Below are positions 891 to 50,316 of a stretch of 64,000 nucleotides of DNA, one piece after another. Source of the stretch: Sphagnum magellanicum (taxonomy: Eukaryota; Streptophyta; Sphagnopsida; Sphagnales; Sphagnaceae); the NCBI GenBank assembly GCA_021904315.1, contig CM038912.1, positions 5,481,061-5,545,060 on the forward strand, read 5' to 3'. The notes beneath the pieces are model-generated. The model was not told the DNA's origin and made no database searches. It saw nothing but the letters and a program-made list of their open reading frames with translations. Within the stretch, counting starts at the first letter, position 1, and the number at the start of each line of letters is the position of its first letter. The translations under genes were made by a program, and so were the position numbers.

Positions 891-3830
891 AATGGAAAAT
901 TTTTAAAAAACTGAAAAATTACTTTTAATTTTAATTTTTTCTACACTTTATAACTAATGGTTAACCAAAGGTTCTTGACCAATGGTTTGAAAACTTACCT
1001 AACATCCATTAAAAATTTGATAATGATATTGATAATGTGAGTGATTGCAAAACAATTTTAAAAAAAAACTTACCCAATAATTTTTTAAAGAATATATCCG
1101 AGCAACATTGTTATGTACTTGTTTATATGTGACCAACATCACAAACTTCATGAGCCATAATTTGACAATATATATTTTTTCATAGGTTTATATTATTTAT
1201 ACAAGAATGTCACTCATCTAAAACACATATGAAACATATATAAATAGAATGAATTTTTTTTATTCATGATAAACTTTTGCATTCTATTTTACATGCTTCA
1301 TACATGTTTTAAACACAAGATTTGTGTCTAAACATTATAAACTTATGAAAAAACAAATTTTGCACACCTACAGGTATTGAATTGTGACCCTATAAGTTTA
1401 AAATGAAATGTTTTATTTCCCTAGATGGAAATCACTTACATTCATTAAACCCTATTCCCTATTACCTATGGTACTAACCCATTTAAGCTACAATCATGCA
1501 TGGAAATAGTAGTGCCAATAGTGGCATTGATTACTATGTATGTTCATTCATACATAGGCTAGTGTTGTAGGTAAGTAACATACATGTCATGTTTACATAA
1601 TAGGCTATCACCACTCTTATCACAAAATTGTAACATGCTGGTAACCTATTACTAAATCTTTCAAATTTAAAGAGTTGTTGGGCTATAACATCTTATCCTT
1701 TGGTTACACATTCAAATATAAACATAGGCTATCAAGGAATATAGGAAGAAAATTGATATCATTAAATATTAGAGCATTTTAAGTTAGTAGCTATTTTTTT
1801 ATATATTACTTATCCCCAAAAAATTTACCACCATTCACAATGTCTTTTGCTTGTGTATACCTAGTTACTTTCCATTTTTACCAATTTATTTCACCTTATA
1901 TATTTCCTTACTTCCAAATCTTGTCTTGCATTTTCCATTCCTAAAGCAAGTAAGCATTCTTCTCACCTCCTCACAATTGTAGTGCAAAATTCATTTGCTT
2001 GAGCTTTTTTAGCTAGTGTGATATTCTCTCAAATCTTCATTGAAATGGTTAATCATTAGCTGATTGGTAGCTATGACATTCTCTTGTATTCATATCTTTT
2101 TGTAAAATTGTGACTCTTTAGATCGTTGAAATCGTCTCAAATTGGTAAGTTGAAAGTTGTTACTGTTCCTCAAGATCATCAGTACCACAAAAAGATGTGA
2201 TCATTTTTTATGTGATAATGTTGACACAAGTTCATGGATTGTTGGTACTTCAATGACTTTTGAAAAGAAAATTGTTGTGCAATGGATTGAAGGGACAACA
2301 AACTAAGTAGTTCAAGAGGAGTGTTTTGTGAGTTATTGCACAATGAAGCAAAATCTTGCAACAAATAGTGCAAAACATTGTGATACATGATTTGTAATGT
2401 ATGTGCATTTGATAACTTAGAACATTTTTAACAATTGATTTTGTTTGAACCTTCATGATATTTTACTACATTCAAAATTCAGTTTAATTATTCCATAGGC
2501 CCACCCATAACATGCATACTGAAATATTATAACCTCAACAACTATTAAAAACCATCACCTAGGCCAATCATTATGGTTGGCCAACTAGGAGCAATCATTT
2601 TTCTTTTCACAAACATTTGAAAACCTCACCATCTAGTGCCAAGTTTATAAGAGCAAACCTTTTTCACATTATTGGGGTGAAAATTTATCCAAATTTTGAT
2701 GTGATGGTTGTTATATTACTACCATTAGGGATGTTCTTATGGTTGAGAATAGAGGTGAGAATATTCTTATTTTGAAGAGTTGTAATTAAACTATCACCAA
2801 CCTTACTATTAATGTTAACCTTTTTCTTTATTTCCATATAAGCATGTCATGAACTTATTATTTATTCATGGGGTGAGCACAAGTAGGAATAGAATTTGCT
2901 AATAACAACATTAACATTGGCATTACCTACATGTGTGAACAACAATGTTTTGGCTTGTAAGTTAATTCAAACCTTCTCCATTTGCTCAACATGACTTGTA
3001 TGTTAACTCCTTGTCATTGTTTTTAAATTTTTTTCAATAACATATCTTCATATGTGAATGTACATTTACATAGGTAATTTATTAAATATTATTAGATGGA
3101 AGTAGGAAGGTTTACAAGATAGGTTATAAGGTTTCAAAGGTGAAACCTTGATTAAATTCAAGTGTGGTTCACCAACAACCAAGTCATAATCAATGTTGGG
3201 CAAGTATTATTTAAATATTAATAGATCACAGACCCCCAAAGATTATTAGGATGTTTTAAAATTCATAATTATGATTTTCTAAAAAATTAGAAGCCCGATT
3301 TTGATATATAACCATGATTTTTAATTTTTTTGAAAAATCCAAATAATTAACCATAAGACTACCAATTTGTTGTTACTTATTTCATCAAGACGATCAATTC
3401 TTTAAGGTTGTTGAAATAATTGAGACTTGAACGACTCCTTGGTTCTAATTTTTTTCCAAACGACTAGTAGTGGTGGTTTTCTAATTATGAAATAATTTTA
3501 AACCGAGAACCAATGGTTCATTATAAATTAAAATAGCCACATAAAACTAGTCATAATAAGTCCATTAGATGGTGTAATGACATGTGTTGGATCATGTAAT
3601 CCTTTCTTTCTATATATTGTATATATAGGCCGACCAAGGCTCTAGGGTTAACACAATCTTTTAGAATGGCCCAACTAGGTCAACAAGTAAATACAAAGCA
3701 CAAACAAATACAAGGAAACACAAGCACACACAACAAAACAAACCTAAGCATTCACACTTGGACTAACATAATCCATGTTAAACACAACTAGGAGAAACAT
3801 TTTGTTTGGTGTAAAATTTCACTGAAATGT
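891..3830. other. AT-rich intergenic DNA, no gene seen
   Basis: Only short chance frames are present (none over 70 residues), with many homopolymer A/T runs. I see no recognisable domain, RNA gene or clear repeat structure. Confidence 0.6.
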
Positions 3831-5159
3831 GATGTCATGGCTGTACATGGCCTCATACATGATGGCCAATTACAGGCATGCCCATCATGCCTTTTAAGGT
3901 TAATGTACGTTTTTAGGGCAAGTGTATGTTCTTAAATGATTATACGTTATTAGGTGCTTAGGGTTTTAGCTTGTTGATGGCTATATAAAAGGCCAAGCCC
4001 TTTTCTTTTCTTTTTAGTTTTTCTAGAATTCCTTTGTCAAGAGAGTTTCCTCCATAATTGAATAGGATTTCTAGATGCTCATGGCGACCATTGCATGACC
4101 ACCATCTACATACATTACATGTTCTTCTTTTTTGCAATTCAATTCTAGAAAAACTTTACTCTCTATTACTTCATGTTAAAAGCGGCAAATTTCTTGTGTT
4201 TTTGGAGTTTTTAAGTTGTTGCTACTAGTGTTGCTGTTGTTGGAGGGAGCACAAGTTGCTACTAATGTTACTACTAGTGTTGTTGGAGGGAGCTTGCATT
4301 GTTATATTTTTGCTAACCAACAAAGTAGGTTTCAAACCTCCTCCCCCCTTCTTTTTCTTTTTTTCGTTCTCTTTATCTTTCTCTCTCGCACAAAGACACA
4401 AGAGGAGGCAATTTTCAAGGAGGCAGTCTTGAAGCTATCAAGTAAAACCAAAAATAAAAAATAAAAATTGCTTCCCCATGTTATAGCACAACGTTGGCCA
4501 TCGTCGTAGCACTGCGAGTTGCCGGCCATCGTTGCAGCCCCGTGAGCTACCGGCCATTGTCACAACGCCGCTAGTTATAACGTGCTGTTAGCCATCATCG
4601 CAATGTCGAAAGCTATAATGCAACGTCGTGAGCGTAACCACCCGCCATCGTTGTGGCGATGCTCAACCTACGTCCATTGGACTTTCGTCGAATGTTTGTT
4701 AATCTTCCCTTGGACTTTCATCGAACGTCCGTCTGACATTCGTTCAAGTTCCATCCAACTTCAGTCCTACATCTTGCCATTCTACCGTCCTACGATCCTA
4801 CGTCATGCGTCTTATCGTTTTATTGTCCTGCGTTTTATGTTTTGTTATCTTGTGTCCTGCCGTTTTGTCGGCCTGCCTTTCCATCCACCATCCATTTGAC
4901 TTCCGTTTGACCTTTGTTCGGCTTCCGTTGGACATTCATTTGACCTTCGTCCAACGTCTGTTAGTCACTAGTCATTCCTAACAACGCACCATATTTTTCA
5001 AACCGTACCTTATGTTAGAATTTTGTAACTAGTGCTTTGTATTGTTACAAAATTTCAGGGCATGGGACAACACCATGTCCTTGGATGATGACCGTTTAGC
5101 TAGAGCCTAGGTATTAGTTACAAAGTAACACACAATCCTTTGAGCCGATTTCTTTAAGC
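3831..5159 (+). repeat. candidate upstream LTR/leader region of element A
   Basis: A TATATAAAAGG box lies at about 3,982, in a stretch that begins TGATGTCATGGCTG (about 3,830), as an LTR U3 might. A two-unit direct repeat (about 45 bp, ending GTTGGAGGGAGC) lies at 4,216-4,295. A more GC-rich block of degenerate short repeats follows at 4,490-4,975. The region ends just before element A gag. I could not find a matching second LTR after 16,390, so the assignment is inference from position and the TATA box. Confidence 0.25.
4490..4975. repeat. degenerate short tandem repeats of higher GC
   Basis: The first half repeats words of the type GCCATCGT-GCAGC-CCGTGAGCTACCG at roughly 45-bp spacing. The second half repeats words of the type GACTTTCGTCGAACGTCCGT and CCTACGTC. 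The composition is clearly richer in C and G than both flanks. The open frame across 4,582-4,899 is compositionally biased and matches nothing I recognise, so I do not call it a gene. Confidence 0.45.
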
Positions 5160-5699
5160 TCACGATCTTCACGATGGTACCATCAAGCATCTATAACACC
5201 AGTGTCATCCAGTACAATTTTTACCAGAAATTTAAGTCCAAGTTACACTACATCAATGGTACATCAGAGTCCATTTATAGGGGTTCATAAATGGGGTACA
5301 CCTGTTGCCGCATTTGCTTTCAAACCATCATCATATATTCCGTTGTAAGCCATTACCTTTACACCCATACACTAGTAGAAATCAGCCAAAATGTAACCAC
5401 TCCATTTATGACTACATGCGACTTATAGTTGTTTGCGACTGGATTTGGGGACATTTGCAACTACAAAACCAAATTTCAACTATTTTAGTCATTTTCACAA
5501 CTATGATGCAACTATTAAAATTTTCATCCTATTGGTTGGATCGATTTTACATTCATTTTCATCCATTAATAGGTTGATATGTCCCATTAGTTGAAGTAAT
5601 CACCAAATTAGTTGCATCCTAAAGGTATTCTACAATGACATACGTGTGTATTTTAATGTATGTACTAAAATTATATATATGCATACGTATGTATATTAT

Positions 5700-6365
5700 T
5701 CATATAATGAATCTCAAAATTAATATTTGAACTTTGGATTTTTAATTCAAATCTGAAAATTGATATTTCAATTATGAAAACTATTATTTTAGTTTTTAAA
5801 AACAATATTAGAATTTGAAACTTGATATTTGAATCTGAAAATTGTTATTTCAATTGTTTAAAAGAATATTTGAATTTCAAATTTTTGATTTGAATATGAT
5901 ATTTTTGATTTAAATTCAAAAAGGCTTCTTTGATCTAAAAATTGATATTTCAATTCTAAATTCATGTTTTTGAATCCAAAAATTAGTATTTCAATTCAGA
6001 AGGTTAGTAATTGATTATAAAATTGGACATTTTAATTTTGAATATTTTTATATGAATATGGAAATTTATATTTCAATTTCGAAAATTTTTCATTTAGCTT
6101 TTCAACAATCATTTGATTTGAACCTGAAATTTCAATTCCAAATTATTATTTGGGATTTTCAAAATTAATACTTCTAGTCTGAAAATTATTAATTAAGTCT
6201 AAAAATGGACATTTCAATTTGAATATTGTTATTTGAATCTGAAAATTTACAATTCAATTTTGGAAATTGTTATTTAAATTCAAAAAACTTATTTGATTTA
6301 GAAATTGCTATTTGAATTCTAAATTATTACTTTCGAATCTAGAAATTAGTATTTCAACTCAAAAA
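5700..6365. repeat. degenerate AT-rich tandem array inside CACTA copy 1
   Basis: Variants of TTTGAATCTGAAAATTG followed by ATATTTCAATT recur at roughly 45-60 bp spacing across about 650 bp. The second CACTA copy has unrelated AT-rich sequence of about 400 bp at the corresponding place, so the array is specific to this copy. Confidence 0.5.
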
Positions 6366-7370
6366 CTAAATTAGAATGATAGGAAAAATAATTATATAAT
6401 TACTAAAATAATTACTAAAAGTTTAATATAATACTATATTATCATTATATTCTTTTCAAATGACATAATAATATGTAACAAAAAATAGCTAGCCTAGGCT
6501 AGCTACAAATTACATTATTATTATAAGTAATAAATTATGAAGTATTACTATATTATAATAATTACCAGAAAATATTAATATATAGTTTTAAGTTTTTATA
6601 ATTAATATTTATTCAGTATTCAGTATTCAATTATTATGATCAATTACTATATATAGTTTTTATTTTCAATTTTATTATTATATAATAATTACTGTAGTAG
6701 TTAGAATGGAAATCTAATAAATTAATATACAAATGCAGAAATTATTTTCGAAGGAAAATTTTTCTTGTTAAAAATAAAAAATATTTAGTGTAATAATTTA
6801 TAAATATCTATAATGAATAAAGTAATAATATGAATAATAAAAATGAAAATAATAATGGGAATAATTGTAATAAAATAGTTAGCATAGGCTAGGTTTTAAT
6901 TATATTATTAGATTAAAAAAACTACTACTTAATTTATATAATCATTAATTATTAATTAATGAATATTTCAGTTATTATGTTAATTTATTTGGTTATGAAA
7001 TAATAAATGATTAATTATTAATAATTAGCTAATTATTTGAATATTAACCAATTATTAGTTAATGAAATTGGTTGATAGATCATTATAGTTCATATATAAT
7101 GAAAATTAAATATACTATTGTTTATATAGCTAATAAATTAAGTAATATTTAGTAATAAATAATTAAATAATTAATGCAGTAATCATAATATATTGATGAT
7201 GATTATTATAAATAATTAGTTAGTTGGATAATTTATAAAGTGAATTAGTTAATATCTAATTTAGTTGTTAAATAATTAATTAACTAGCTTATTAATTTAT
7301 TTTTCTATTTTTTATTCATTAAATAATTAGCTAATTAGTTAGCTAATTAGTTGTCACTTACCACTTAATT

Positions 7371-7528
7371 ATATACTTTTCAAGATGAGGATGAAAACCA
7401 AAACATATGGGATAAACTTTTTAGTTGCAAGTCATTTGCGACTAAAAATGTTTAAGTTGCAAATGACTTACAACTAAAAAGTTTATCCCATATGTTTTGG
7501 CTTTCATCCTCATCTTGAAAAGTATATA
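7371..7528. repeat. long near-perfect hairpin inside CACTA copy 1
   Basis: About 77 bp on the left, starting ATATACTTTTCAAGATGAGG, is mirrored by the right arm ending CCTCATCTTGAAAAGTATAT, with almost no loop. The arms include the subterminal word TTGCGACTA / AGTTGCAAA. The second CACTA copy has the same structure at about 63,338-63,494, with more mismatches. Confidence 0.75.
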
Positions 7529-8201
7529 AACAAGGTGTTTTGTCTTTATATTTTCATATTTAAAGATATGGACATATGGGATGAGCCAATGAAAAAGACT
7601 TAACCCAAAATAAAATAAAAATATTCATGTATTTACATTTAACTATATACTTCCCTAACTTACCTACCTACTTTTCTACCTACATACCTTCTTAAGTAGG
7701 TATTTGGCCTAGGTAGGTAAATAGGTCCTATCTAGATAGGTGTTTAGCCTATATGGGTAGGTAGGTATATAGGTAGGTAGGTACCTAGTTCAACCTACAT
7801 ACCTAAATATTGATTTAAATTGATTTGGACAAATTCAATTAATATTCCATGTGTCACAATTTAAACCATCTAAACATAAAAATTAAAAATCTTGGATTAT
7901 TTCAAAAGAATAAAAAAAAAAATTATTAAAAGTTGGGACACATGGCAACACATAAATTGTTCCCATTGTTCACCAAAAAAGTCACATCCTAGTTGTAAAC
8001 GACAATATGTATATGACAAGTCAAAGGATGAAAGCGTATTTTGTTGACTTTTTCCTTCATCCAAAATTCATTGTTGTTTGCGACTAGTGTCCTATGCGAC
8101 TTGTCCAACGTGACTAATAAGATTTTAGTTGCAAATGTCGCTTGCAACTAAAACTTAGTCGCATGGACCAGTTGTAAAATGACCATTTTCTACTAGTGAT
8201 A

Positions 8202-10134
8202 TACACTATGAAGGTTAACAGTTATTCTGGGAGAATTGAAAAGTTTAGCGGAAGGCCATGTATTATTTTTTTGAGGGATTTCAAAACAACTTTTTCAACT
8301 GTGGTCTATGAATTGGAGCTCAAATATGGCGCTAATTACATTGAGGTGTTTGTATTCAAACAACTGGCCCGTTATGTGCACAATGAAACATTGGATGTTT
8401 ACGAATAACATTCTGCAAGGATTTTGGGCATCACCCAGATTCCCAATCCATCTTATGCCATAGCTATCGCCACCACCTCTCAAGCTGCATTACAAGCTAC
8501 AATTGCACATCATGGGATTATGCCCAATAATCCAGACCCGGTACCTACTTCAGTGAACCTTTCTCCTCAATAACTCATTGTTGTTACCACAAACATTCCT
8601 CCCACCATCGATGTGCAAACTTTTGCTGATCTAGTGGGGGAATTTTTTTGAGTTCTTGAGCTGGAATTTCTAGTCAAGAGTTCTGAAAAAATTTTACAGC
8701 TCGCCACCTTTTCTCACCAAAAGGATGAAACCTTCAAGATGTTCTATAAGAGGCTTTTCAAACTCAAAGAGGATACCCAGAGCATCATAGACCTAGAAGT
8801 TGCCCACTGGTATCTTTGTTCGTTGGAAAGTACTCCAACATTCCATGCGTAGGTTTTGTAATGGGTTTTTGCAGAATTTGGAGATTCATACACTTTGTTA
8901 GATGTCTACAACATTTTCGAAAAGCTGGAACTAGCTCATGCACACTATGAGGCTAGTACTATGAGGCCTCCATCACGTTCAAGGCCTCAGCCTACACCAG
9001 CTACGCTAACCAGATCATCACATTCTTTTTTAAGGGTTAAAGCGGTGCATTTGGCTACACCCATTTTACCTTCTTGCAACTACTATGGCACCTGCCCACA
9101 AAGCTAGTGAGTGCAACATTCCTTCCAAGGATCTCTTTTGTGATTATTGTGGGAAATAGGGACATTAAGAAACTGTCTATTTTGCTAAGTTCTTGGAACG
9201 AAAGTAACTCCGATTACCACGACAAAATTTGCCATCATCTTCCATTGTCCCTCAACCAAAAGCCAAAACACCTTAGCCTTCCATTTAAGCTTTGCCCACC
9301 AAAGGTAATTCTAGTAAGAATGCTAAGAAGAAGGAGCACAATGCTGACAAGAAAGAGGTGCTTCAAGCCCATGCGATTTAAGTTCAAACTCTACAAAATG
9401 AATTCGAATCATTGAAGGCCTAGCTTGCTAATCTAAAAGGCAAGTCCTCCCAACCAGCTAGTCATGCCTGTACAAGGTTCAAGGTCACATAAGGGACCTC
9501 CTAGGTCATTCTATGGCCTCCCACACGATGCCATGGTTGGGGATTATGTTTTTTCTAATGCACATAATTGTAGTCTCACACCAAAATTTACTACTTATTT
9601 TTACCCTTCCTATGTCGCGGCACAAGAGGCTAATGTGGCACCCAGAGTTTCTGCCACTAGGTAGGTAATTTAGACTGATGGACTTGCATTTGGTTCAAGT
9701 CCTATTACCAAGGCTAGAAGAGCTCAAACAATCATGCCACAATCTTTTTGTCTTCTTAACACGGAAAAAGAACGCACCTTGTTGGCGAGGGGGGAGGAGA
9801 CTACTACACCACAAGTTGTTTGGGCATCAAATTCTTGTGTCCTAGGAGTACATGTACATCAAGAAAACACACAATTTTCCACTGATCAGCTTATGGAATG
9901 CCAAGTTCAAATGCGTGAAGTGGTGCAAAAGCTTATGAGTACACCATTGTTTAGTTTTCAAAATTTGAAGCTAAGCACTAAGGACATAATTGCAGTACTA
10001 GAAGATACCCTGAACACTACATCAAGTCCTCTACCAATCCTTGATTCACATGCTACAGAGGTCCCATCCAACACTTTGGAGAGACATTCGATTAGCTCAC
10101 GTGTTGTAAATGGCATTCGTAATCAATCACTAGT
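8202..10134 (+). mobile_element. element A gag part
   Basis: Segments resemble a retrotransposon gag. A capsid-like stretch at about 8,700-8,960 has the pattern KDETFKMFYKRLFKLKEDTQ followed by a YLCSLES-like step. A Ser/Pro-rich linker and a CDYCGK-type CCHC finger segment follow at about 9,135-9,190, then a long low-complexity tail. The leader before the CACTA insertion (about 5,160-5,369) appears to belong to the same gag. The role would be particle formation and RNA packaging. This is a fossil with several breaks. Confidence 0.6.
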
Positions 10135-10139
10135 TCTAG

Positions 10140-11160
10140 TGCCGCAACCCTAGCTTTGGGCTCACGACAAAGGCAAAAGGGGTTGTAAGGTTGCGGGCCA
10201 AGAGGAAGTCCAGGAGTTAAAGCAAGAGGAAGTCCGAGAGTTAAGGCAAGAAGAAGCTTGAGAGTTAAGGCAAAAGGAAGCCCGGGAATCAAGGCAAGAA
10301 GAAGCCCGGGAGTCACATCACATACTCCCGGGAGTGTTAGAAAGTGTGAGGGAGTATGAGGGAATGAACCCTCACACTCCCAAGGCAACTCCCACTTTGG
10401 GAGATGGAGTCCCGGTGGATTCCCAAAACTTCAGAGAGTGATTGCAGGAGTCAAAACCCAATGGCTTGTGGCGTTCTTTATATCATTCGAAAGCTCTTGG
10501 AACGTAGATGTCTAAAGTGGGCTCGCATTGCTCATTTGGACATTTGAAACGTAAGTTATGGCCAAAAGAAGGGTCGGGAGTCAAATTGCCAATTTGACTC
10601 CCGACCACAAAAAGTTGGGAATCGACCCGATTTGCTTAGTTGTAGGAGGCTTGCCACACATCGTTGGAAAGCTCTTGACGATAGCTACAACTTTGCTTTA
10701 GATCTCACCTCAATCGGAGGTCTGCTCGTAAAGTTATGGGGCTCCAAAGTCGTAGGAGTCCCAGCTGGCGGGATTTCGGGACTCCCACTCGGGAGTCCCG
10801 GGAGAGAAAAGTCATTTGGATGTAGGCTTCGTGGCCAGTCACAGAGTATACTATAAGGGGGAAGGTGGTGGCTTCCCCCAAGTCCGGGCCGTGGTGAGTC
10901 TTGTGTGTCTGTGTTGCCTGTGGTTCGTCCTAGCACCAAGGGTGCTCCAATTATGCACTAACCGCTTTGTGTGGGTTGTGTGCAGGCCCGTGTAAGTGAG
11001 TGAAGCTTGTCAACTCTTCCTAGTCCCATCCTGGAGCTCCAACACGCCCCTCTACCCCTCAAAGTGTTGTGAGCTAGGGAGCGTGCTCCAACTCCTCCCT
11101 TTTTCGCTGTGTTCGATTTGGACCCACATTTGGGTCCTTTAAAAAGTTGGGAGTGCGTCA
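10140..11160 (+). mobile_element. solo LTR, family S, inside element A
   Basis: The repeat begins TGCCGCAACCCTAGC and ends GTTGGGAGTGCGTCA (TG...CA). It is flanked by a perfect 5-bp duplication TCTAG (10,135-10,139 and 11,161-11,165). At 1,021 bp it has a TATA-like TATACTATAAGG at about 10,847 and, near its 5' end, five imperfect 24-bp repeats of the type AGGAAGCCCGGGAGTTAAGG (about 10,200-10,315). No internal retroelement sequence accompanies it, so it looks like the product of LTR-LTR recombination. Three further copies of the family lie between 24,983 and 33,972. Confidence 0.85.
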
Positions 11161-11329
11161 TCTAGCATGGATAAACTAGTGGGCTTTCCTATATCTGATT
11201 CTACATTCACATATCAGAAGGGAGTTAAGAACACCTCACTTGTGGATTTGTTACTCAACAAAGGTGTTGTGGATTAGCTTCTCTCCACAAAGTCTCTCAC
11301 TCATTTCCGAAGGTGGTGCTTAGTAAAAG

Positions 11330-11930
11330 AATTTCCATCACCATTGGAGTTGCCATTGTTGACAATATTAGGTTAGCAATCCAAATGGGAGGACATACAC
11401 CCAGAGTGGTACTTCTTGATACAGGTGCCCAACTAATGATTCTTGGAGTTTAATTTTCCAAAAAGATGGCATGCTTGATTCCAAACTATGGAAATCTATG
11501 TGGCAGATTCGCACCGCTAGTGGGAGCGTAAACGAGGTATTTGGGGAAAGCTCGGATTTGATTGCATTTAACTTCAATGAAGATACAGATCAAGAGTTTT
11601 GCTTGTAGGTTAGATGTTTAATCACCTATGCCACCCGTTATGATGTGCTCATTGGGCAAGAGGCCTTGCTTCCACCAGGTTTCACAATTGATAACTAGTT
11701 CGAACATGCATACTACCGAGTGGATTGGGAGACTGACGGCCACCACCTGGGATACATACCCTTTGATTTACATGGGAACCATAATCCTATGGCTCACCAT
11801 TGTATGCTCAAGGAATCACACACCATTTCCTATATCCAATAAGCTAACCATGAGTGGATAGAGGGAGATGAGGAGGATATAGTTTACGTTTAAGCTACTA
11901 AAAGCTTCAAGGTGGTTCCTACTAACATTC
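11330..11930 (+). mobile_element. element A aspartic protease part
   Basis: The stretch RVVLLDTGAQLMILGV at about 11,400-11,450 carries the D-T-G-A active-site motif of retropepsins. It lies between hydrophobic strands, with a VLIGQEALLP-like segment further on (about 11,640) in the place of the family's second hydrophobic-glycine motif. The protease would process the element's polyprotein. It lies directly before the methyltransferase part. Confidence 0.6.
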
Positions 11931-11977
11931 AACACGGACTAGGGGTTTTATAGAGGTTCAAAGTAGCCCACAAGCCC

Positions 11978-13050
11978 TTGGTTAAAGCTTTGTCTAGTTT
12001 TAAGTGCATGGAGAGTCATGGCGAACCGATTAAACCATTACTTCATCAGCTAATCACCTGGACACCACCTGAGGAAGGGATTACATTACTAGAGCTCTTT
12101 GGTGGTAGTGGTATAGGTCTCGAAGCTCTAGTCAGGGATGGTGGTTCGGAGGTATTTCTACATAGACATTGATCCTATTGCAAGGCAAGTGGCGGCATTG
12201 AGAATGAGGGAGTTCACAACCAGATTTCCACAACAATTTGCAACCATTGCATGGAAGGTTAGTTTCACATTTTTGCCCTCTGACATACAACTAATTCAGA
12301 TGAAGCATATGGAATTACTTGGCCCCGTCGACCTCATCATTTCAAGTTGGGAGTGTAAAGGATTTTCAGCGACTAGATTTGGAAAAGGTTTGAATGACAC
12401 AAGATCTGGTCTTTTCACGAACATGATATGATTAATCACTTAAACTCAATCCATTTCTCCTACACTTGGTTATGTAATTGAGAACACCCTTTCTCAGCTT
12501 GACCAGAGGGAGAAAGTCTAGGAACACTACACATTACCTTGGAAAGTCGCTCCTACTTGATGTGGCACAATGCGGTTCCTATGTGCACCGGCTATGTGAC
12601 TGGTGAACCAACTTGGCACCATTCGCAGTTTTGTAGCTAGCTCTGAGATACACTATCAAAGACCTTAACATGTAGGTTTTTCACATATTGGATGATCAAA
12701 GTTCTTGCCAACCAATTACAAGGCAAGAGAAACCTCTTTGGTTTCCTACAAACATAATAGGAAAACCAAGAGGTGCTTGGCCCACCTTTGTCTCCTTCTC
12801 AGGAGCACATGCTTTTCAAGGAGATGGACCAGGCCTAATGTATTGTCATGCTTCAACCACTTGGGATAAACCAAGCCTAAAAGAAAGAGAAAGGGCTATG
12901 GGGTTCCAAATTGGCAGTACTAATCACACTAAAGTTATTAGATCAGAGCATAATGCTCTACTAGGGAGAGGCATGGACTTGAACTCCCTTACATGGTTGT
13001 TGGTAACTTGTGTACTCTTTCAAATGTACACAACACTAACATTGATTTAA
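11978..13050 (+). mobile_element. element A C5-cytosine DNA methyltransferase part (Dnmt3-like)
   Basis: Motifs of the C5-cytosine methyltransferase family appear in their linear order. Motif I, LLELFGGSGIGLEAL (about 12,085-12,131), is the SAM-binding loop. Motif II is YIDIDPIA (about 12,157-12,183). The motif IV region, GPVDLIISSWECKGFS (about 12,325-12,372), holds the cysteine expected to attack cytosine C6. Motif VI is YVIENT (about 12,470-12,489). A motif X-like LLGRGMDLNSLTWLL lies at about 12,958-13,005. Linear order argues against the rearranged plant DRM type. Wording around motif I (GLEAL) and GPVDLII resembles Dnmt3 more than MET1 or CMT; that placement is inference. It sits between protease and RT, on the same strand and inside the element, so it is a captured domain of the element rather than a host gene. 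Fossil copy with breaks. Confidence 0.82.
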
Positions 13051-13329
13051 TCAATTTGCAGTTCTGGTGATGCAATCACATGGCACCTCAACCAAGTACA
13101 CTTGCCTATTTTCAACACTCTACATTTCACTCTTAGTGTTGGGGGGGAGGAGGTACCATGTAATTTGACTCAAGTTGTGTTTAATACACCTGGAGGTACA
13201 TTAGCTTTTGGAGAAACAATTACAACCTTCTACAAATCTACAAAGTTGGATAGTGGAAAACCCAATACACCAGGTTCTTCAAACACACTTTCCAACTCCA
13301 TTCCATGTGTTTCCAACTACCTTTTCATT

Positions 13330-14740
13330 ATGGGGAACCAGTTCACCAAGAAGGAAAGAGACCAGGTCATAGACTTGCTAATTAAATATGAAAATGTGTT
13401 CACATTCTCAATGAAAGACTTAGGTAGGTGTAAGACCATGCAGTTCTCTATAGACCTTATAGATGAGACACTTATTTAGTGGAGGAGGCATAGGTTAAGT
13501 AAGCATGAGTGGGAACTAGTAGATGAAAGATGCAAAGAGCTCCATGAGGCTGGTCTCATTCAGCCATCAAGTTTTGATTTCGTAGTTGCTAAAATAATGT
13601 TAGCAAAGAAAGATTTAACTGGATTATGGACTGAGAAAAGGATGTGCGGGGATTATAGGCCTTTGAACCTAGTTACACCTCAAGACAGGTGCCCTATGCC
13701 CATCCTTGAAGAATTGTTTGATAGCATTGGAGATTCAAAGATCTTCACAATTGTGGATCTAAGGCAAGGTTTTAACCAAATTATGCTCACTATGAAGGAT
13801 CACAAGAAAACAACATTCCATGGAAGTAACAAGTTGTGGGAATGGCTTGTGATGCCTTTTGGATTGAAGAATGCACTTGTCTTCTTTCAATGAGTCATGG
13901 ACCAAGTTCTTGAAGGGGTAGATTTCTTAAAGTGCTACATAGATGACATCCCAATGCATAGCAAGGGACTCCTACAACACTTGGCTCATCTTGAGGAGTT
14001 ATTCAAAAGGTTCCATGAAGTCAATATGAAGATCTATCCTAAAAAGTGTGAGTTTGCTGTCACTTCAGTAGTCTACCTTGGACACAAAATTTTGCCAAAT
14101 GGTATTATGGTTCATTGGGCCAAAGTAGTAGCCATTTTGAAGATGCCCAATCCTACTAATATTCACACGTTGAGAAGCTTCATCGAACTATGTAATTACT
14201 ATAGAATTTATGTCCAAGATTTCAATACTATTGCTCATCCTCTCTATGCATTGTTAAAGAAGGATGTTACTTGGACATGGAGTGATGAGGTTCAGGAAGC
14301 TTTCAACACATTCAAAGAAAAGCTTTTAGAGTTCCCCATTTTGAGAAGACCTGATTTCAACAAGGTCTTCATTCTACACATTGACTGGAGTGTTCTTGGT
14401 ATTGGAACTATTCTTAGCCAACTTGATGAGGAAGGCAAGGAATATGTTATTGCCTATGCATTTTGAAGCAACAACAAGGTTGAGAATAACTACTCTTCAT
14501 ACGAGGGGGAGCGCTTTGCTATTGTATGGGTCGTCATACATTTTAGGCCCTATCTTTATGGCACCACTTTCACTTTGTATACCAACCACCAACCTATCAA
14601 GTGGTTGATGACCAACAATAAGCTTACTGGTAAGTTAGCTCGTTAGGCGCTTATACTTCAAGAATATGAGTTCAAGGTTATTCACCAACCTAGTATTACA
14701 CATTTGAATGCGGATACCATGTCACGGAGACCCCTCATTA
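13330..14740 (+). mobile_element. element A reverse transcriptase and RNase H parts
   Basis: RT fingers and palm are visible. MCGDYRPLNLVT is the region before the palm, FTIVDLRQGFNQI (about 13,745) is motif A, VMPFGLKNALVFFQ (about 13,850) is motif B, and CYIDDIPMHSKG (about 13,935) is the YxDD catalytic motif. The connection and an RNase H start with FILHIDWSVLGIGTILSQ (about 14,370) follow, with SSYEGERFAIVW further on. The order RT, RNase H, integrase is that of Ty3/gypsy. Fossil copy with breaks. Confidence 0.85.
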
Positions 14741-15015
14741 CTTTTGAAGATTTTCCAGAAGCTAGGCGAGATTTTGACCAAATTCTAATAGTACACATAT
14801 CTGATGCATTTAATTATCTTGCACTACTGCAATGTAACCTAGTTGAGCATCCCATTGTGGATATATGGGAGGATTTGGACACTCTGAAGTTTTTTCAGCA
14901 TGGGGAATACCTTCCTCAAGTTACATCAAATTAGCAGGATCGCATGCAATAGCGGTCCAAACGCTACTCATGGAAGGACAATCACCTAGTCCGATGCTTA
15001 CCACAAGGCGACAAA

Positions 15016-16100
15016 GTGGTTCCTCCACCACATGAACGGCCTGGTCTTAATCAAAAGGTACACTTGGAGCTTGGACACTTTGGAGTTAAGCGTACTTATA
15101 GCCTTCTTGCTCCTCATTACCATTGGAGAGGTATGTATGCTCAAGTCCAAGACGTCATTGCTAGGTGTGAACAATGTGATAAAATGAGAACTTTGTGAAC
15201 AATGTGATAAAGTGAGAACTTTTTTCTCCTCTCGACAGCTCACGCTTTCTCCACTCCCTATTCAAGGCATGTTCTATCGTTGGTCATGTGATTTAGTTAG
15301 AGAGTTACCACAAACCTCCACAGGTAATGTTTACATCATGATTATGATTAAGCATTTTTCAAAGTGGGTTGAGCTTATTGCACTACCGGACAAGTCATCA
15401 CACGGCACCAGCCAGGCTTTCTTACAATAGGTTCTAAGTAGGTTTGGGGCTTGTGTTGAATGCCTTACTAATCAAGGATAAAAAATTTAGGGGAGAATTC
15501 GAAGACCTACTTGACCATGCTTTCATTGACCATCATTGGACTTCAAGAGATCATCCCCAAGCTGATGGCCTTGAAGAGAGGATGGTTCAAACGTGCAAGA
15601 AGGGATTTCGGAAGATTTGCTTCACTAAGAACAAAGAGGATTGGGACCTAGCCTTCCTTTACATCGCCATGGGTTATAGGATGTCCAAACATGCCTCTTT
15701 ATCTCATTTCTCTCCTTACTTTTTACTTTTTGGGAGACATCCCATTCCACCCTTTTCCATTGCTACTCAAATGGACCAGGTTGTGGACTTGGACTCCCTA
15801 ATCACTTGGGCTAGGGTCATTGCACAAAGGGTTGTTCTATTCAGGAATGTTATGCCCATGGCCATGGAGAACTTGTCCATTGCACAACATCGAAACACCT
15901 TACGGTATGCACACACACGAGGTGGCAGTTACAAACTTAAGGTGAGACAATTTGATGTTGGTGATTTTGTGTATTTCTAGCGGTAACCCAATGATACTCT
16001 AGACACTTCTTCCGGTCGCATTATCTTAAGGATTAAGGCGATCAGGCCTTCAAGTGTGTTGGAGTTACAAGGAGTTAACGGATGCATAATTCAGGATCAT
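15016..16100 (+). mobile_element. element A integrase part
   Basis: The HHCC zinc-binding segment (HLELGHFGVKRTYSLL through CEQCDKM) lies at about 15,058-15,190. The RNase H-fold catalytic core follows, with RWSCDLVRELP near 15,280 and the HPQADGLEERMVQT segment near 15,550. A C-terminal part (VRQFDVGDFVYF, about 15,940) then leads to the PHD finger. It would insert the cDNA copy into host chromatin. Fossil copy with breaks. Confidence 0.8.
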
Positions 16101-16169
16101 TCCAAAAATTGTGTGCCCTGCCACCTACCGAATTTGGATCCTACCATCATCATGTCGACTTGGATTCCT

Positions 16170-16345
16170 CCACTTGATTATCCATGTTAGGTATGTTAGA
16201 GGACAGATGATGCTAATCAAATGCTCCTTTGCGATAATTGTAATGGTGGATACCATCTCTTCTGCCTCAATCCGGAGCTCACTCAAGTTTTCGTCAACAA
16301 TTGATACTGTTCATCATGTTCTTCTAAAGCACCTTGATTCCTACC
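16170..16345 (+). mobile_element. element A C-terminal PHD finger part
   Basis: Reading one frame, the C4HC3 zinc-ligand spacing of a PHD finger is visible. There is a C-x2-C pair near 16,190, then MLLCDNCNGGYHLFCLNPEL (about 16,218-16,277), then a final C-x2-C pair (YCSSC) near 16,310. MLLCD-C--GYH--CL-P-L is the classic PHD core. PHD fingers bind histone H3 tails, often read through K4 state. At the end of an integrase it would be placed to steer integration, as a chromodomain does in chromoviruses; that role is inference. Confidence 0.75.
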
Positions 16346-16390
16346 TAGACCATGCCACGCTTTTCCCGACTTAGGTCTAGGGAGGGGATA

Positions 16391-17145
16391 CATGAAAATT
16401 TCATCTTAGCCTCCTCTTGTGCATTGTATATATGTGCATGCATTTCTTTTTGGTTGATTAGTTTATACCTTTCATTTGCTTTAGTCTTTTTGTTTAGTAA
16501 AATTTACTATGGATTTACACCCTTACGACATCGTACGTCATGACACTACACGTCACGACAGTGAACAAATTGGGGCTATGACCCCTACAAAGGCAAATGT
16601 TTTGAAATTTTAAAAAATCAATTTGCTCAAAATAGTAAGGTTGGGACTATAATGAATCAAAATATTTAATCAGTTCATTATTCATTTAAGTTACCATTAT
16701 CCTCACAATATGAGACTTGGGTAAAAACAAGAATAATGAAGCAATAGTTCATGTTGAAACACACTTAAATAATTGTGAAAAGGTGTAAACGGGCATATAT
16801 GTTAGATTTAGATTAATTGTTCATTTCTTCTTTTTCATCAGTTATAATGCTTCAATTATGTTCTAAAGCATTATTTATAAACTTCAAAAAATGCTTTTCA
16901 ATACTCAATATTGTACCTACCATCAATATTCGATAGATTTTGTCAAAATTATTATATTATTTCAACTCCCATTCTTGTGAATTATTTAACTCCAAACATC
17001 AATGACAAATATGAGACTCATTAAATTCATTTCATATATTTATCCAATGGCTACAATGATAGATTCAAATTTATTCTCATATTAATACACCATGCATTTT
17101 CAGGACTAAATTTACCACTAAATAAACCATGTAAGTTAAGCAATC
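16391..17145. other. element A 3' flank and AT-rich intergenic DNA
   Basis: The first 200 bases are probably untranslated tail of element A, including an ACGTCATGACACTACACGTC-like short repeat at about 16,530. A second candidate LTR start (AAATTGGGGC then TATGACCCC) lies near 16,570. No matching upstream LTR was found. The rest is AT-rich with no gene seen. Confidence 0.4.
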
Positions 17146-27494: not shown

Positions 27495-28465
27495 TGGACA
27501 ACTCAGAATCAAACATTGATCTCACTCAAATCCTTGCCGCCCTTCAGCACCTTCAACAAGAAAATGCCATGCTTAGAAACTCGGTGACCCGCCTATAGAA
27601 TCAGCCACCACCTCCTGCCCCAGTACTTCCTACTCTTGCAATGGTCGCCCCAGAGCCCAAGATCAATATGCCAGAAAAGTTTGATGGAACAGGCTTCAAA
27701 TTTCGAGGTTTTGTTAGCCAAGTACGCCTGATCATGCAACTACACCCTCGTCGTTATTTTGATGACACCACTCGTGTAGGATTCATTGGAACCCTACTCA
27801 CTAGGACAGCTGCAGCATGGTTTGCTCCCATCCTGGAAACATCATCCCATCTCCTACAAGATTTCAACGCCTTTATGGCGGAATTTGAAGCAGTGTTTGG
27901 GGACAGTGACAAGGCTAGGACTTCAGCCAACAAGCTGCGTCGCCTCTAGCAAGGGACACGTTCGGCCATCGTTTACACCTCAGAATTTAGGCAGCTTGCC
28001 TGCGACGTCAATTGGGGAGAAGCTGCTTTGATTAATCAGTTTCGCTGTGGGCTTCGTGATGATGTTCAAAATCTTTTGTTGACACTCGCAGACCCTTCTT
28101 CCTTCAGTGAAGCTATCACCCAAGCAATTCGGTGCGATAATCGTCTGTTCGAACGTCACCAAGAAAATAAAGCCACCTCCAACACCCAGCTTTGGAATAG
28201 TCGGCCTACTACGCTCCCCTCAGTTCCTCAAATAACACCAATTGCCCGACCTGCTTCTTTTGGACTTGCTCCGATGCAGATCGACACAGCTATGTTTAAA
28301 TCTTTGATAGAAGCCGAGAAACTTCGCCGAAGGACAAACAATCTATGTTTTTACTGTGGCAACCCAGGGCATATAGCTCGTCAGTGCCCTCAAAAGCTTG
28401 TCAAACTTCAAATACAAGCTGTGGAAACTCCCCAAGAGTTGGAAAACAAGAACATCCAGTCATAG
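27495..28465 (+). mobile_element. element B gag part with CCHC zinc knuckle
   Basis: A short coiled-coil-like start (LTQILAALQHLQQENAMLR) leads to a Retrotrans_gag-like capsid region (MPEKFDGTGFKFRGFVSQVR ... AAWFAP) at about 27,665-28,130. A CCHC zinc knuckle, CFYCGNPGHIARQC, follows at about 28,345-28,390. It would form the particle and bind RNA. Confidence 0.8.
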
Positions 28466-28554
28466 TAAGAGCCGTGCGACTGGATCTCACCTAACACCAC
28501 CTTTGCAAAGGCTCCTGTTCTGCTGTTGGTCCCAGTCCCAGTTTCACTCAATAT

Positions 28555-29334
28555 GTGGACATCATTCGTATTCCAGAAGACATACCACAAGTGTCAGCTT
28601 TGGTGGACTCCGGCGCCACCTCTTCTTTCATCGACCAAACATTTGTCGTCCAACATAACATCCCTATGATCAAGAAGTCAACCCTTGTTCCGGTAGAGGT
28701 TATTGATGGGAGAACCATTGCTTCTGGTGCAATCACACATGAGATAACCCCTCTAGAACTCTATATCGGCAAGCACACGGAGAAGATTGTTCTCAACATC
28801 ATCTCCACCCCTCACCATCCCATCATCCTTGGTCTGCCTTGGCTAGAAGCACACAACCTTATCATTGATTGGCGGTCTAGAACCCTCACCTTCAGCGCAC
28901 AACGGTGCACCTATCAAGAACCCCCCGCTCAGAAAAACACTTTGTCCAGTCCTGCCAAAACCCCTGTGGTCAAAAACCCAAAGAGGGTCGAAACCAATTC
29001 TAGTTTTCTCAAGTCTGTTATGTCAAGTCCTACAGTCAAGAACCCCCAATTGGTCAGAACTAAACCTTGTCCTATCAAGAACCTTGTCAAAAATCTTGCC
29101 CAGAAAACCAACCCTGTGCAGATCTTCGTTGATAGAGCTGTCCCTTTCTATCGGGCTGCTAAGAATCTTCAAGTCTTCGCCATCCATGTCAACCCAGCCA
29201 ACAACACAAACCCCCCATCAAAACCAACACTTGTCAACCTTCCCGAGAAGTACAAGGACTTTGTTGATTTTTTGAAAAAATTAATACTAATCAGCTCCCC
29301 GCCCATAGTCCATATGACTGCCCGATTGATCTAG
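28555..29334 (+). mobile_element. element B aspartic protease part and linker
   Basis: The retropepsin active-site motif ALVDSGATSSFID lies at about 28,597-28,635. The family's second motif, IILGLPWLEAHNL, lies at about 28,825-28,860. A basic Lys/Pro-rich linker, with repeated VKNP words, then leads toward the reverse transcriptase. Confidence 0.8.
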
Positions 29335-29471
29335 AAGAAGGACACTCACCACCCTTTGGTCTTATCTATGGCCTATCGGAACCGGAACTCTAAGCCCTAC
29401 GTGATTACCTTACTGAAAATCTTGCCAAGGGGTTCATTCAGCATTCCAAGTCTCCAGCCAGTGCCCCAATT

Positions 29472-30557
29472 TTGTTTGTCAAGAAGAAGGATGGCTCCCT
29501 TCGACTCTGTGTGGATTATCGTGGACTCAACAAGAGAACCAAAAAGAATCGATATCCCTTGCCCTTGATTTCAGGTCTCCTGGATCGATTACGTACCGAG
29601 AAGATCTTCACCAAGCTTGACCTCCATGGAGCCTACAACTTACTCAAGATTCGTCCCAGTGATGAATGGAAGACAGCTTTCCGCACACGCTATGACCACT
29701 TCGAATACACTGTCATGCCCTTCGGCCTCACCAATGCACCCGCAGTCTTTCAACATCTGATGAATGATATCTTCCGGGATTACATGGACGAATTTGTTGT
29801 GGTCTATTTGGATGACATTTTAATCTTTTCCAAAGACCAGGAAATCCACGACAAACATGTACGATTGGTGCTTGCAACGCTCCGAGAGCATGGTTTATAC
29901 GCCAAGTTGGAAAAATGTGAATTCAACAAATCTTCAGTGGCGTTCCTCAGCTACGTGATCTCTCCAAATGGCATTTTCATGGACAAGTCAAAGGTTGAGA
30001 CCATCCAGTGTTGGGCTACTCCATCCTCGGTCAAGGATGTTCAACGCTTCCTAGGGTTTGCCAACTTCTATCGTCGGTTTATCAAAGGCTACTCCAAGAT
30101 CGCAACACCGTTAATAACCCTGACTTGCAAAGATAAGCCCTTCTCGTGGAACCCAACGGCCCAGGTTGCTTTTGATACTCTCAAGATGGCATTCACCTCT
30201 GCACCCATCTTGATACATCCTGATCCTGCCAAGCCATTCATTGTGGAAACGGACGCTTCAGATTTTGCCTTGGGAGCTATTCTATCTCAATTTGGAATAG
30301 ATGGGTTGCTGCATCCAGTTGCTTTCTATTCACGGAAGTTAACCAGTGCCGAAATCAACTACCAGGTCTACGATAAGGAACTCATGGCAATCATCATGGC
30401 ATTCGAGCAATGGAGACCGTATCTTGCCGGAGCTCAACATCGAGTCCAAGTTCTGACAGATCACAAGAATCTCCTTTATTTCACAACTACTCGGACCTTA
30501 AATTGTCGCCAGGCACGCTGGTCTATCTTCCTAGCTGATTTCAACTTTGAGATTTAG
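29472..30557 (+). mobile_element. element B reverse transcriptase and RNase H part
   Basis: All RT landmarks are visible in one long frame: FVKKKDGSLRLCVDYRGLNK, FTKLDLHGAYNLLKI (motif A), VMPFGLTNAPAVFQHLMNDI (motif B) and VVVYLDDILIFS (catalytic YLDD, about 29,800-29,835). RFLGFANFYRRFIKGYS (connection) and an RNase H starting FIVETDASDFALGAILSQ (about 30,238) with the YDKELMAI and TDHKNL motifs follow. This is the best-preserved piece of the element. Confidence 0.93.
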
Positions 30558-30879
30558 TATCAACCCGGCACCCAGCAAGGGAAAACTGACGCGCTATCTC
30601 ATCGTTCAGAATATGAACTTCGAGCGGGGGATGAGGCCTACGGTCAGCAGAACCAGACTTTACTCAACCTCGAGCAATTTCGAGTTGCAGCAACAATCAG
30701 CACCCTCCCAGACTCATACCTTGTCAGGGACATCAAGATGGCAACTGAGGAAGACACTTGGGCTACCAACATCAAGAAGGAACTCCAAGAACAACCAAGG
30801 AACCCAAATCGTGATGACCTGGATCAATTTGAGTAGCAAGACGGACTTCTCCTTCGAAATAACCTGATTTATGTACCCG

Positions 30880-31874
30880 AAGGACCTATACACCTAAAAA
30901 TCTTGAGAAAATGTCACGACAACACCCTGGCAGGTCACTTTGGAATAGCACGGACTCACAAACTAGTGTCAAGGACTTATTGGTGGCCCAAAATGAACAA
31001 GCTGCTACGGGAGTATGTCAAGTCTTGTGATACATGTGCTCGATCCAAGGCCCCCAGACATCGCCCGTTTGGACTCCTACAGCCTCTGTCGATTCCTAGC
31101 CGACCTTGGGGATCTATTGCAATGGACTTCATCACGGACCTCCTTACTGTCAGAACCAAGAATTCAATATTGGTTGTGGTCGATTGACTCACCAAAATGG
31201 CCCATTTCACCCTTTGTTCCAAGTTAATCACGGTAGAAGAGACAGCTCAGTTAATTCTAGACGGGATCGTCCGACTGCATGGACTCCCCGAGGAAATTAT
31301 GTCCGATAGAGGTCTTCAGTTTGCATCCAAGTTCTGGCATCGTCTATTCAAGCTTCTTGGAGTTGACATTTGGCTATCTTCAGCTTTCCACCCCGAGACA
31401 GATGGACAAACCGAACGGACAAACCAGACACTCGAGCAATACCTTCGCTACACTGTGAACTACCAACAGGACGACTAGCTAGACCTACTATCTCAAGCAG
31501 AGTTTGCTTATAACAACACAACACATGCATCGACCGAGATCAGTCCATTCTTTGCCAATTACGGTTTTCATCCCATGTTTAGCCTTAAAATTCCTGGAGA
31601 CTCCGTAAACCCCTCGGCTGAAGAAAGGGCCACGAGGCTTGGACAGGTTCAACAAAACCTTATGGCAGAACTCAAGCTAACACAGGAGTGGCAAAAGAAG
31701 CAAGCAGACCGCCGACGCAAGGACCATCCAAACTTCAAGGTTGGAGACAAGGTTTGGCTTCTCAGAAAGAACATTGCTACCACTCGCCCATGTGCCAAGT
31801 TGGATTACAAGCGCTTCGGACCTTTCAAAATCGCCAAATTGGTTGGTCTAGTGGCTTGCCAGTTGGAGCTTCCA
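30880..31874 (+). mobile_element. element B integrase part
   Basis: The HHCC zinc-binding motif (HFGIARTHKLV...CDTCARSK) lies at about 30,938-31,055. The catalytic core follows: WGSIAMDFITDL (about 31,106), then LPEEIMSDRGLQFASKFW (about 31,285) and FHPETDGQTERTNQTLEQ (about 31,387). A C-terminal FKVGDKVWLLRKN segment lies at about 31,735. The part ends at the solo LTR. Confidence 0.9.
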
Positions 31875-32849
31875 TGTCGCAACCCTAACTTTGGGCTCGT
31901 GACCAAGGCAAAGGGAATTGCAAGGGTGCGGGCCAAAGGGAAGCCCGGGAGTTAAGCCAAAAGGAAGCCCGGGAGCTAAGGCAAAAGGAAGCCCGGGAGT
32001 TAATCCAAGAGGAAGCCCGGGAGTGCAAGAAAGTGCTAGGGAGTGTGAGGGAGTGAACACTCACACTCTCAAGGCAACTCCCACTTGGGGAGATGGAGTC
32101 CCGATGGACTCCCGAAATTTCAGAGAGCGATTGCAGGGGTCAAAACTCAATGGATTGTGGCGTTCTTTATATCAATGGAAAGCTCTTGAAGCGTAGATGT
32201 TTAAAATGGGCTCGCATTGCTCATTCAGACATGTGAAACACAAGTTATGGCCAAAAGAAGGGCCAGGAGTCGAATTGCCAATTTAACTCCCGACCACAAA
32301 AAGTCGGGAATCGACCTCTTCCCGATGTCTGATTTGGGAGTGCGACACGGCGTTGGAAAGCTCTCGACGAGAGCTACAACTTTGCTTCAATGTGCGTCGC
32401 GATCAGAGGTCTGCTCGCAAAGTTATGGGGCTCCAAAGTCCCGGGAGTCCCATTTGGCGCGATTTCGGGACTCCCAGTCGCGAGTCCCGGGAAAAATAGC
32501 CATTTGGATGTGGGCTCCGTGGAGAGTCACAAAGTATACTATAAGGGGGAAGGTGGTGGCTTCCCCCAAGTCCGGGCCGTGGTGAGTCTTGTGTGTCCGT
32601 GTTGCCTGTGGCTCGTCCTAGCACCAAGGGTGCTCCAACTTTGCACTAACCACTTTGTGTGGGTTGTGTGCAGGCCCGTGTGAGTGACTAAAGCTTGTCA
32701 ACTCTTCCTAGTCCCATCCCGAAGCTCCAACCCGCCCCTCTACCCCTCAAAGGGTTGTGAGCTAGGGAGCGTGCTCCAACTCCTCTCTTCTCCGCTGCTT
32801 TTCTACTTGGGTTCACATTTGAGTCCTTTGAGGAGTTGGGGGTGCGTCA
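31875..32849 (+). mobile_element. solo LTR, family S, inside element B
   Basis: This runs from TGTCGCAACCCTAAC to GTTGGGGGTGCGTCA, 975 bp. It is flanked by a perfect duplication TTCCA (31,870-31,874 and 32,850-32,854). The TATA-like TATACTATAAGG is at about 32,535. Four 24-bp repeats of the type AGGAAGCCCGGGAGTTAAGC lie at about 31,940-32,025. It is closest to the copy at 10,140 (about 90% by eye). It lies between the integrase and chromodomain parts of element B and is the youngest layer of the nest. Confidence 0.9.
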
Positions 32850-50017: not shown

Positions 50018-50316
50018 CCACCAATCACAAAGCCACTCCTTACGTTGTCTTTGGGGCCTTTCTCCTCATCCATCTTGTTGTGGTTCATTCAAACCCTCAT
50101 ATTGTGGTGGAATAATTGTTTTTTTTGAAAAATAGTTTGATGTAAATTCATCACCTTCCACATCTTCCGCTAGTTTCTCCTTCAAAGATATAGATTAGCA
50201 TCCTTAATATCATCATTCACAACTTCATCCACAACAATGTGTTCTACTTGCTTTGAAGGGGGTTTATTATCATGAACACCTTCCACTTCTTTTGTCCCTT
50301 CAAGGAACACAACATC

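Follow-up and report, generated by a model that had tools for sequence, protein, structure and literature searches.

A dead copy of a methyltransferase-bearing Gypsy-type retroelement in Sphagnum magellanicum, with a proposed mechanism

Retroelements carrying a cytosine DNA methyltransferase (MTase) have so far been reported, in the literature that we found, from Klebsormidium and from dinoflagellates (PMC5890265), with streptophytes and dinoflagellates repeated as hosts in PMC12344493. The closest described system is KnitGypsy-Dnmt3 of Klebsormidium nitens, which combines Gypsy domains with DIRS-like repeats; in Symbiodinium, SymbioDIRS-Dnmt3 and SymbioLINE-Dnmt also bear a cytosine MTase, which in the DIRS type is of the Dnmt3 class. 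De novo CG methylation has been shown in yeast for SymbioDIRS-Dnmt3, with the Klebsormidium domain giving an inconclusive negative, and methylation of ‘self’ DNA has been proposed for elements of this kind (PMC5890265). Here, we describe an element in a 64,000-nucleotide stretch of the Sphagnum magellanicum genome (‘the window’; G000:C6:5481061-5545060, within an assembly of 439.0 Mb and 31 contigs), for which an initial annotation had proposed a Gypsy retroelement with a C5-cytosine MTase between its protease and its reverse transcriptase (RT), whilst pointing, correctly according to PMC5890265, to the capture of such enzymes by charophyte and dinoflagellate retrotransposons. We consider it probable that the dead copy in the window belongs to a resident, MTase-bearing Gypsy-type retroelement of Sphagnum that is selectively maintained and that may replicate and insert in the manner that we propose below.

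The moss elements, which form two families (A and B), share with KnitGypsy-Dnmt3 an unpermuted Dnmt3-class MTase that lies in Pol, within a Gypsy-like set of domains, as well as DIRS-like repeats and purifying selection on the MTase (PMC5890265). They differ in their moss host, in there being two families, in the ECQ that replaces PCQ in family A, and in having a PHD finger on the integrase, a word absent from the main text of PMC5890265 on KnitGypsy-Dnmt3; their ends and target duplication are, in addition, worked out here. Whereas the Symbiodinium elements use a tyrosine recombinase or LINE machinery (PMC5890265), the moss elements have a DDE-type integrase with a PHD finger, and share with Ty3/Gypsy the order protease, RT, RNase H and integrase (with H2C2 region and DDE core), the MTase here being inserted between protease and RT. 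No K. nitens protein appeared by name among the matches listed in our protein searches.

A Dnmt3-class methyltransferase resident in two families

All of the MTase motifs quoted by the initial annotation were located in linear order on one strand of the translated window, across 12059-13032, where identity to a relative is 73-79%: LLELFGGSGIGLEAL lies near 12087 in frame 2, FYIDIDPIA, GPVDLIISSWECKGFS and GYVIENT in frame 3 from ~12135 to ~12500, and LLGRGMDLNSLTWLL near 12957 in frame 1. The DTGA protease (~11418) and YIDD RT (~13937) flank the domain on the same strand, just as had been claimed. Two further motifs had been overlooked, namely VIII (LLDVAQCGSYVHRL, near 12555, frame 1) and IX (KPSLKERERAMGF, near 12870). 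In a check against the PF00145 profile, as the initial annotation had suggested, the joined pieces of the decayed window domain reach 20.6 bits (E 3.4e-4), below the Pfam cut-off of 22, and six of eight scanned relatives score 27.1-36.6 bits, with no match in the other two (P0064, itself a S. magellanicum protein in NCBI, and P0080). The first protein search returned 192 matches at E <=0.01, with identities of up to 74% over the whole query among the 120 listed; two relatives align over the full length (100%) of the query, with 73-74% identity and E ~1e-171. Used as a query against the genome, the family-A MTase found at least 114 matches at 74-90% identity (113 scored of 1097 first-look candidates). 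Chance similarity of the motifs is excluded by these full-length relatives together with the 114 matches in the same genome.

The MTase is of the Dnmt3 class, as the initial annotation had supposed: ranking by PDB profiles places DNMT3A first (2.1e-17), ahead of DRM (7.6e-9) and HhaI (3.6e-7), a comparison of folds also ranks it with DNMT3, and by these measures it stands nearer to DNMT3 than to DRM, bacterial C5 MTases or DNMT2. Its motifs run unpermuted from I to X, as in DNMT3, and a permuted, DRM-type enzyme was rejected. A phage-type enzyme was likewise rejected as nearest relative, phage C5 MTases showing 22-28% identity and a best E of ~1e-10 (20 of 404 records); viral contigs searched with P0001 held no relative, and those searched with a query labelled ‘A2’ gave 80 loci at 23-47% identity. 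Our first structure model (P0002 with ‘A1’) was weak, at a pLDDT of 46.7. The domain shares its catalytic fold and motif order with DNMT3A and DNMT3B; animal DNMT3 carries ADD and PWWP domains (PMC12344493), whereas Pfam scans found no match to either beside the element MTase, the histone reader sitting instead on the integrase. By eye, the host moss loci include three DRM-like genes (L027, L029 and L030) and one CMT/MET-like gene (L028).

The MTase is a resident domain of a Gypsy-type element with two Sphagnum families, of which young copies are known. Eleven copies (eight of family A, three of family B) were fetched from the list of PF00145 matches, a sample that tests the place of the MTase and not its frequency, and all eleven present the same order: zinc knuckle, protease, MTase, RT, RNase H, H2C2, integrase core and PHD finger. 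The MTases of the two families are ~39% identical. As a test blind to the MTase, the genome was searched with RT (150 of 4059 first-look candidates scored) and the best 60 places were checked: at 49 an MTase match already in our genome search lists lies just upstream on the same strand, and fetching the remaining 11 revealed seven with an MTase covering 326-330 of 330 residues, two with remnants of 43 and 69 residues from its C-terminus, and two without MTase in 2.2 kb, in both of which the beginning of the linker is missing as well. The domain is thus present at 56 of the 60, and these best 60 of 150 scored places include no family-A copy that cleanly lacks it. Single open frames, furthermore, fuse the MTase to gag-protease (P0122) and to RT-RNase H (P0121). 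In one instance (G000:C17), a family-A MTase place at 19328250 (+) lies close to an RT place at 19330285 (-), on opposite strands, as a rearranged or nested pair.

The family-A MTase is under purifying selection. In the eight family-A copies (28 pairs, Nei-Gojobori), drawn from the PF00145-picked eleven and selected for the length of their open frames, a choice biased towards intact MTases, the ratio of non-synonymous to synonymous change (dN/dS) is 0.123 for the MTase (<0.2 in KnitGypsy-Dnmt3; PMC5890265), as compared with 0.202 for integrase, 0.286 for RT, 0.346 for protease and 0.478 for RNase H, and with 0.269 for gag in seven of these copies.

It could still be imagined that a fragment of a host MTase gene fell by chance into one old Gypsy copy, the more so as the window holds a decayed copy with two stretches unmatched to the element. 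Such an isolated fragment is refuted by the recurrence of the domain at one and the same place in both families and upstream of nearly all of the best RT places, as well as by the fused open frames and the selection on the MTase, and we give it practically no credence. The initial annotation had tied its claim that the MTase travelled with the element to a profile match and to sister copies with the domain likewise placed, and had called for a search of the same genome for the same domain order; both were found, the latter between protease and RT in two families.

Element ends, split repeats and a proposed route of insertion

In 12 copies, window included, the element starts with TGTCATG and ends with CACGACA (one CACAACA, one CATGACA), and in all 12 the target duplication on either side is exact and 4 bp long. 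When the boundaries were shifted by up to 4 bases, only one other setting gave duplications in at least three copies (4/12). Six more copies, taken from the upper part of the genome MTase match list, bring the exact duplications to 15 of 18: three are exact with normal ends, one has 3 of 4 bases, one has lost A1 (its apparent duplication is uncounted) and one is without A1 in the stretch.

Between these ends, the terminal repeats are split, a feature that the initial annotation had overlooked. The layout is A1-coding-B1-A2-B2 in five of the eight copies of family A and in two of the three of family B, which makes seven of 12 with the DIRS-like arrangement of KnitGypsy-Dnmt3 (PMC5890265), and A1-coding-B1 in the other four fetched copies and in the window (5/12); amongst the six additional copies, three are A-B-A-B, one is A-B and two are without a normal A1. 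The A repeats measure ~290-385 bp and the B repeats 107-185 bp, the members of a pair being 94.6-100% identical, and one family-B copy has an extra stretch in A2. The insertion is not bordered by identical long terminal repeats (LTRs), since the 5' end carries A only and the 3' end finishes in B; nor was a primer-binding site identified after A1. A purine-rich tract sits immediately 5' of B1, the B1|A2 border reads CACGACAGCTGTCATG in all seven A-B-A-B copies of the first set, and the A2|B2 border in five family-A copies reads ...TTCAAT|ATACATGAG.

Because the purine tract stands just before B1, and because A2|B2 reads as a junction of repeat with repeat, we infer that ordinary reverse transcription would yield DNA with B+A as its LTR. 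This reverse transcript would then be closed into a circle, whereupon the DDE integrase would cut the palindrome CACGACAGCTGTCATG at the B|A border in one repeat, much as retroviral integrase leaves CA-3' ends, and would insert the permuted linear form. A two-repeat circle would produce A-coding-B-A-B; A-coding-B would result from a circle with a single repeat, or from B repeats that recombined afterwards.

Alternatively, the ends might arise through DIRS-type replication of an RNA that runs from A1 to B2, with no integrase cutting of a two-repeat circle; the A-coding-B-A-B layout has indeed been described for DIRS as well as for KnitGypsy-Dnmt3 (PMC5890265). We judge this to be unlikely, given the H2C2 region and DDE-type integrase core, the purine tract before B1 and the target duplications of all 12 copies; in addition, the Pfam matches of six proteins include no tyrosine recombinase, although no search aimed at recombinases was made. 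DIRS elements themselves are not known to leave a target duplication. On the circle-and-cut route, the ends supply a concrete and testable account of the puzzling DIRS-like repeats in such Gypsy elements.

The PHD finger, the wider clade and the role of the methyltransferase

The integrase ends in an in-frame PHD finger that the initial annotation had overlooked. Its closest solved relatives are the fingers of KMT2C, ATXR5, KDM5-type (Lid), KMT2D, WSTF and BAZ2B, several of which read histone H3 unmethylated at K4. Chromodomain Gypsy elements carry a chromatin reader at the C-terminus of their integrase; the moss elements do too, with a PHD finger there instead, and the chromodomain expected of a chromovirus was absent from Pfam scans of the integrase.

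A second, MTase-blind search, with the H2C2-integrase-PHD part of P0128 (a polyprotein that itself bears an MTase), gave 374 matches, of which 120 were listed, query included. Most of these are unnamed metagenome proteins; those named to species come from Haematococcus, Tetrabaena, Volvox, Chlamydomonas and Pleodorina, with one Chromochloris-type locus code, all of which we take to be chlorophytes. By profile, 108 of the 120 bear an MTase, some weakly or in part, as do 80 of the 87 listed matches with RT through PHD (counts that leave out P0130 and P0125-P0127, the latter found only through the MTase). Unlike in the moss elements, the MTase of these relatives lies between RNase H and H2C2, a gap of 562-877 residues in 90 MTase-bearing proteins (P0125-P0127 included). 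G-patch domains (PF01585) are listed in P0178, P0187, P0223 and P0242; P0124-P0127 have additional sequence beyond the PHD finger, which in P0126 and P0127 contains VVDPWCG(S/T)GG...NDINP...SPWF, a Rossmann-like segment that may represent a second domain of methylase type, and in P0125 a weak Tudor match (PF21743, 22.7 bits against a cut-off of 27.2).

Distances between MTases correlate with those between RTs (r 0.236) and between integrases (r 0.372), 0 of 2000 permutations being as high in each case, and shared nearest neighbours number 38 of 78 for RT/MTase, and 37 each for integrase/MTase and RT/integrase. These figures suggest that, for the most part, MTase and element have travelled together. 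Some exchange is possible, since the trees differ: the moss families form one clade in a quick tree of RT and integrase (SH-aLRT 94), and in the MTase tree, where four of the five ‘moss’ rows are metagenome proteins, they unite at 99 in a group that also takes in the long-branch P0130, which falls among them, and are adjoined by P0182, P0199, P0228, P0245 and P0242, which do not adjoin them in the tree of RT and integrase. The moss/algal root is weak because the outgroup has RT only (41% of columns). P0130 is a C5-MTase fused to RNase H, with no RT or integrase match, and has GPPGQ as motif IV, with G at the place of the catalytic Cys.

As to catalysis, GWECQGFS, ENTP and AHRLR are conserved in all eight family-A copies, and family B has the canonical PCQ. 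In 111 MTase-bearing proteins (P0125-P0127 included; 5-7 gaps per column), the Cys is kept in 94, the Glu of ENV in 96 and the motif-VIII Arg in 97. We expect that the family-B enzyme is active and, with less assurance, incline to think that of family A active also. The family-A domain might instead be structural, aiding folding, dimerisation or DNA binding without catalysis, for which the E before the Cys (E in 65 of the 111 related proteins, P in 21) and the loss of catalytic residues from modules of retained length in volvocine relatives could be adduced; set against the conserved motifs and the PCQ of family B, this strikes us as improbable.

With regard to targets, we suggest that the PHD finger would guide the integrase towards H3 tails, probably ones that lack methylation at K4, and that the MTase, made in Pol with RT and integrase, would methylate double-stranded DNA of the element itself, either ahead of insertion or during it, which would make a new copy resemble DNA already silenced by the host. 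That its own DNA is the target is a tentative proposal, which we put forward as plausible and would not press. The enzyme could, for example, act on the host genome or on chromatin at the insertion site, or temper transposition to the benefit of the host, and not act on complementary DNA at all; host-benefit and insertion-site ideas are offered in the discussion of PMC5890265, and the PHD finger suggests contact with chromatin. Lying beside RT in Pol, the MTase would be expected to travel with the replicating nucleic acid, and we regard a host or chromatin target as rather unlikely. More broadly, and with considerable doubt, we speculate that an old retroelement clade of the green lineage couples a de novo DNMT3 that it encodes itself, an integrase that reads histones through its PHD finger, and the integration of circles through a palindrome cut inside the repeat, such that copies might already be methylated on arrival and be steered to chromatin that lacks active marks, self-silencing or camouflaged on entry, the MTase module having moved between two places in Pol.

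Several observations weigh against this picture of a resident, selected and catalytic MTase in an element that inserts from circles. Glutamate replaces the motif-IV proline beside the catalytic Cys in 8/8 family-A copies; the sample used for dN/dS, as noted, favours intact MTases; and in family B differences are too few to judge selection, those in the MTase being mostly non-synonymous. The correlation between RT and integrase distances (r 0.566) is closer than that of the MTase with either. Seven of 97 relatives, without MTase, have an RNase H-H2C2 gap of 204-236 residues, a clean absence of the module, and in the volvocine P0134, P0148, P0149, P0167, P0186, P0201 and P0210 the aligned Cys is missing and the ENV pair lost or unaligned, with module length retained in the five volvocine members with RNase H and H2C2 that were checked. 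Given these dead volvocine MTases and the seven relatives without the module, the MTase is not essential everywhere. Finally, A-coding-B copies could also derive from A-B-A-B by recombination between B repeats, and so need not reflect one-repeat circles.

In the open-access literature we found no description of MTase-bearing Gypsy elements in mosses or chlorophytes and, as far as the papers found show, the moss and chlorophyte hosts, the integrase PHD finger and the evidence for a putative integrase cut inside the repeat would be new. With young families in a land plant, one with its MTase under selection, and many chlorophyte relatives, the question of why a transposon would methylate DNA can be put to the test in culturable organisms, which offer contrasts made by nature: PCQ against ECQ, live against dead MTase, and module present against absent.

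Anatomy of the window copy and its surroundings

The element of the window is a dead, decayed copy whose true limits, 3833-16560, had been overlooked by the initial annotation; its features are collected in Table 1.

Table 1. Coordinates of the element's features within the window
Feature	Position	Strand	Basis or remark
Left 4-bp target-site duplication, GTGA	3829..3832	+	End comparison
Terminal repeat A1, begins TGTCATG	3833..4145	+	79.8% identity to A repeat of young copy
DNA unmatched in young copy, splits 5' part; probably insertion	5373..8200		Comparison with young copy; AT-rich repeats, hairpin
gag N-terminal part	8208..8957	+	72.8% identity to P0122
Zinc-knuckle region	9091..9231	+	Match to relative
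Second stretch unmatched in young copy's element; probably insertion	10140..11160		24-nt tandem repeats at 10199-10318
Aspartic protease region (DTGA)	11322..11857	+	Motif and match to relative
Dnmt3-type C5-cytosine MTase domain, complete but frameshifted	12059..13032	+	Three frames: 12059-12142, 12135-12536, 12532-13032
Linker MTase-RT	13033..13446	+	84.8% identity to P0121
Reverse transcriptase (YIDD)	13447..14226	+	Motif; also RT place C6:5494651 in genome RT search
RNase H	14227..14589	+	Match to relative
Open frame with integrase H2C2 zinc-binding region	14953..15198	+	PF17921, 3.2e-15
Integrase core (3' part) and C-terminal part	15504..16124	+	In frame with PHD finger
PHD finger, integrase C-terminus	16185..16325	+	PF00628, 36.7 bits (cut-off 24)
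Purine-rich tract directly upstream of repeat B (young copies: run of G)	16377..16387	+	End comparison
Terminal repeat B1, ends CACGACA; A2 and B2 absent	16388..16560	+	81.6% identity to young copy
Right 4-bp target-site duplication, GTGA	16561..16564	+	End comparison

Within the DNA that splits the 5' part lie AT-rich direct repeats (5707-6364) and a hairpin (7364-7534) with arms of 84 nt, 93% complementary, and a loop of 3 nt. Elsewhere in the window, a second and better preserved Gypsy-type element (27950-31955, +) has a gag zinc knuckle, a VDSGATSSF protease, a YLDD RT and an integrase end, and inspection by eye of the open reading frames listed for it showed no MTase motif; a Copia-type RT fragment, also recognised by eye, lies at 49520-50065 (-).
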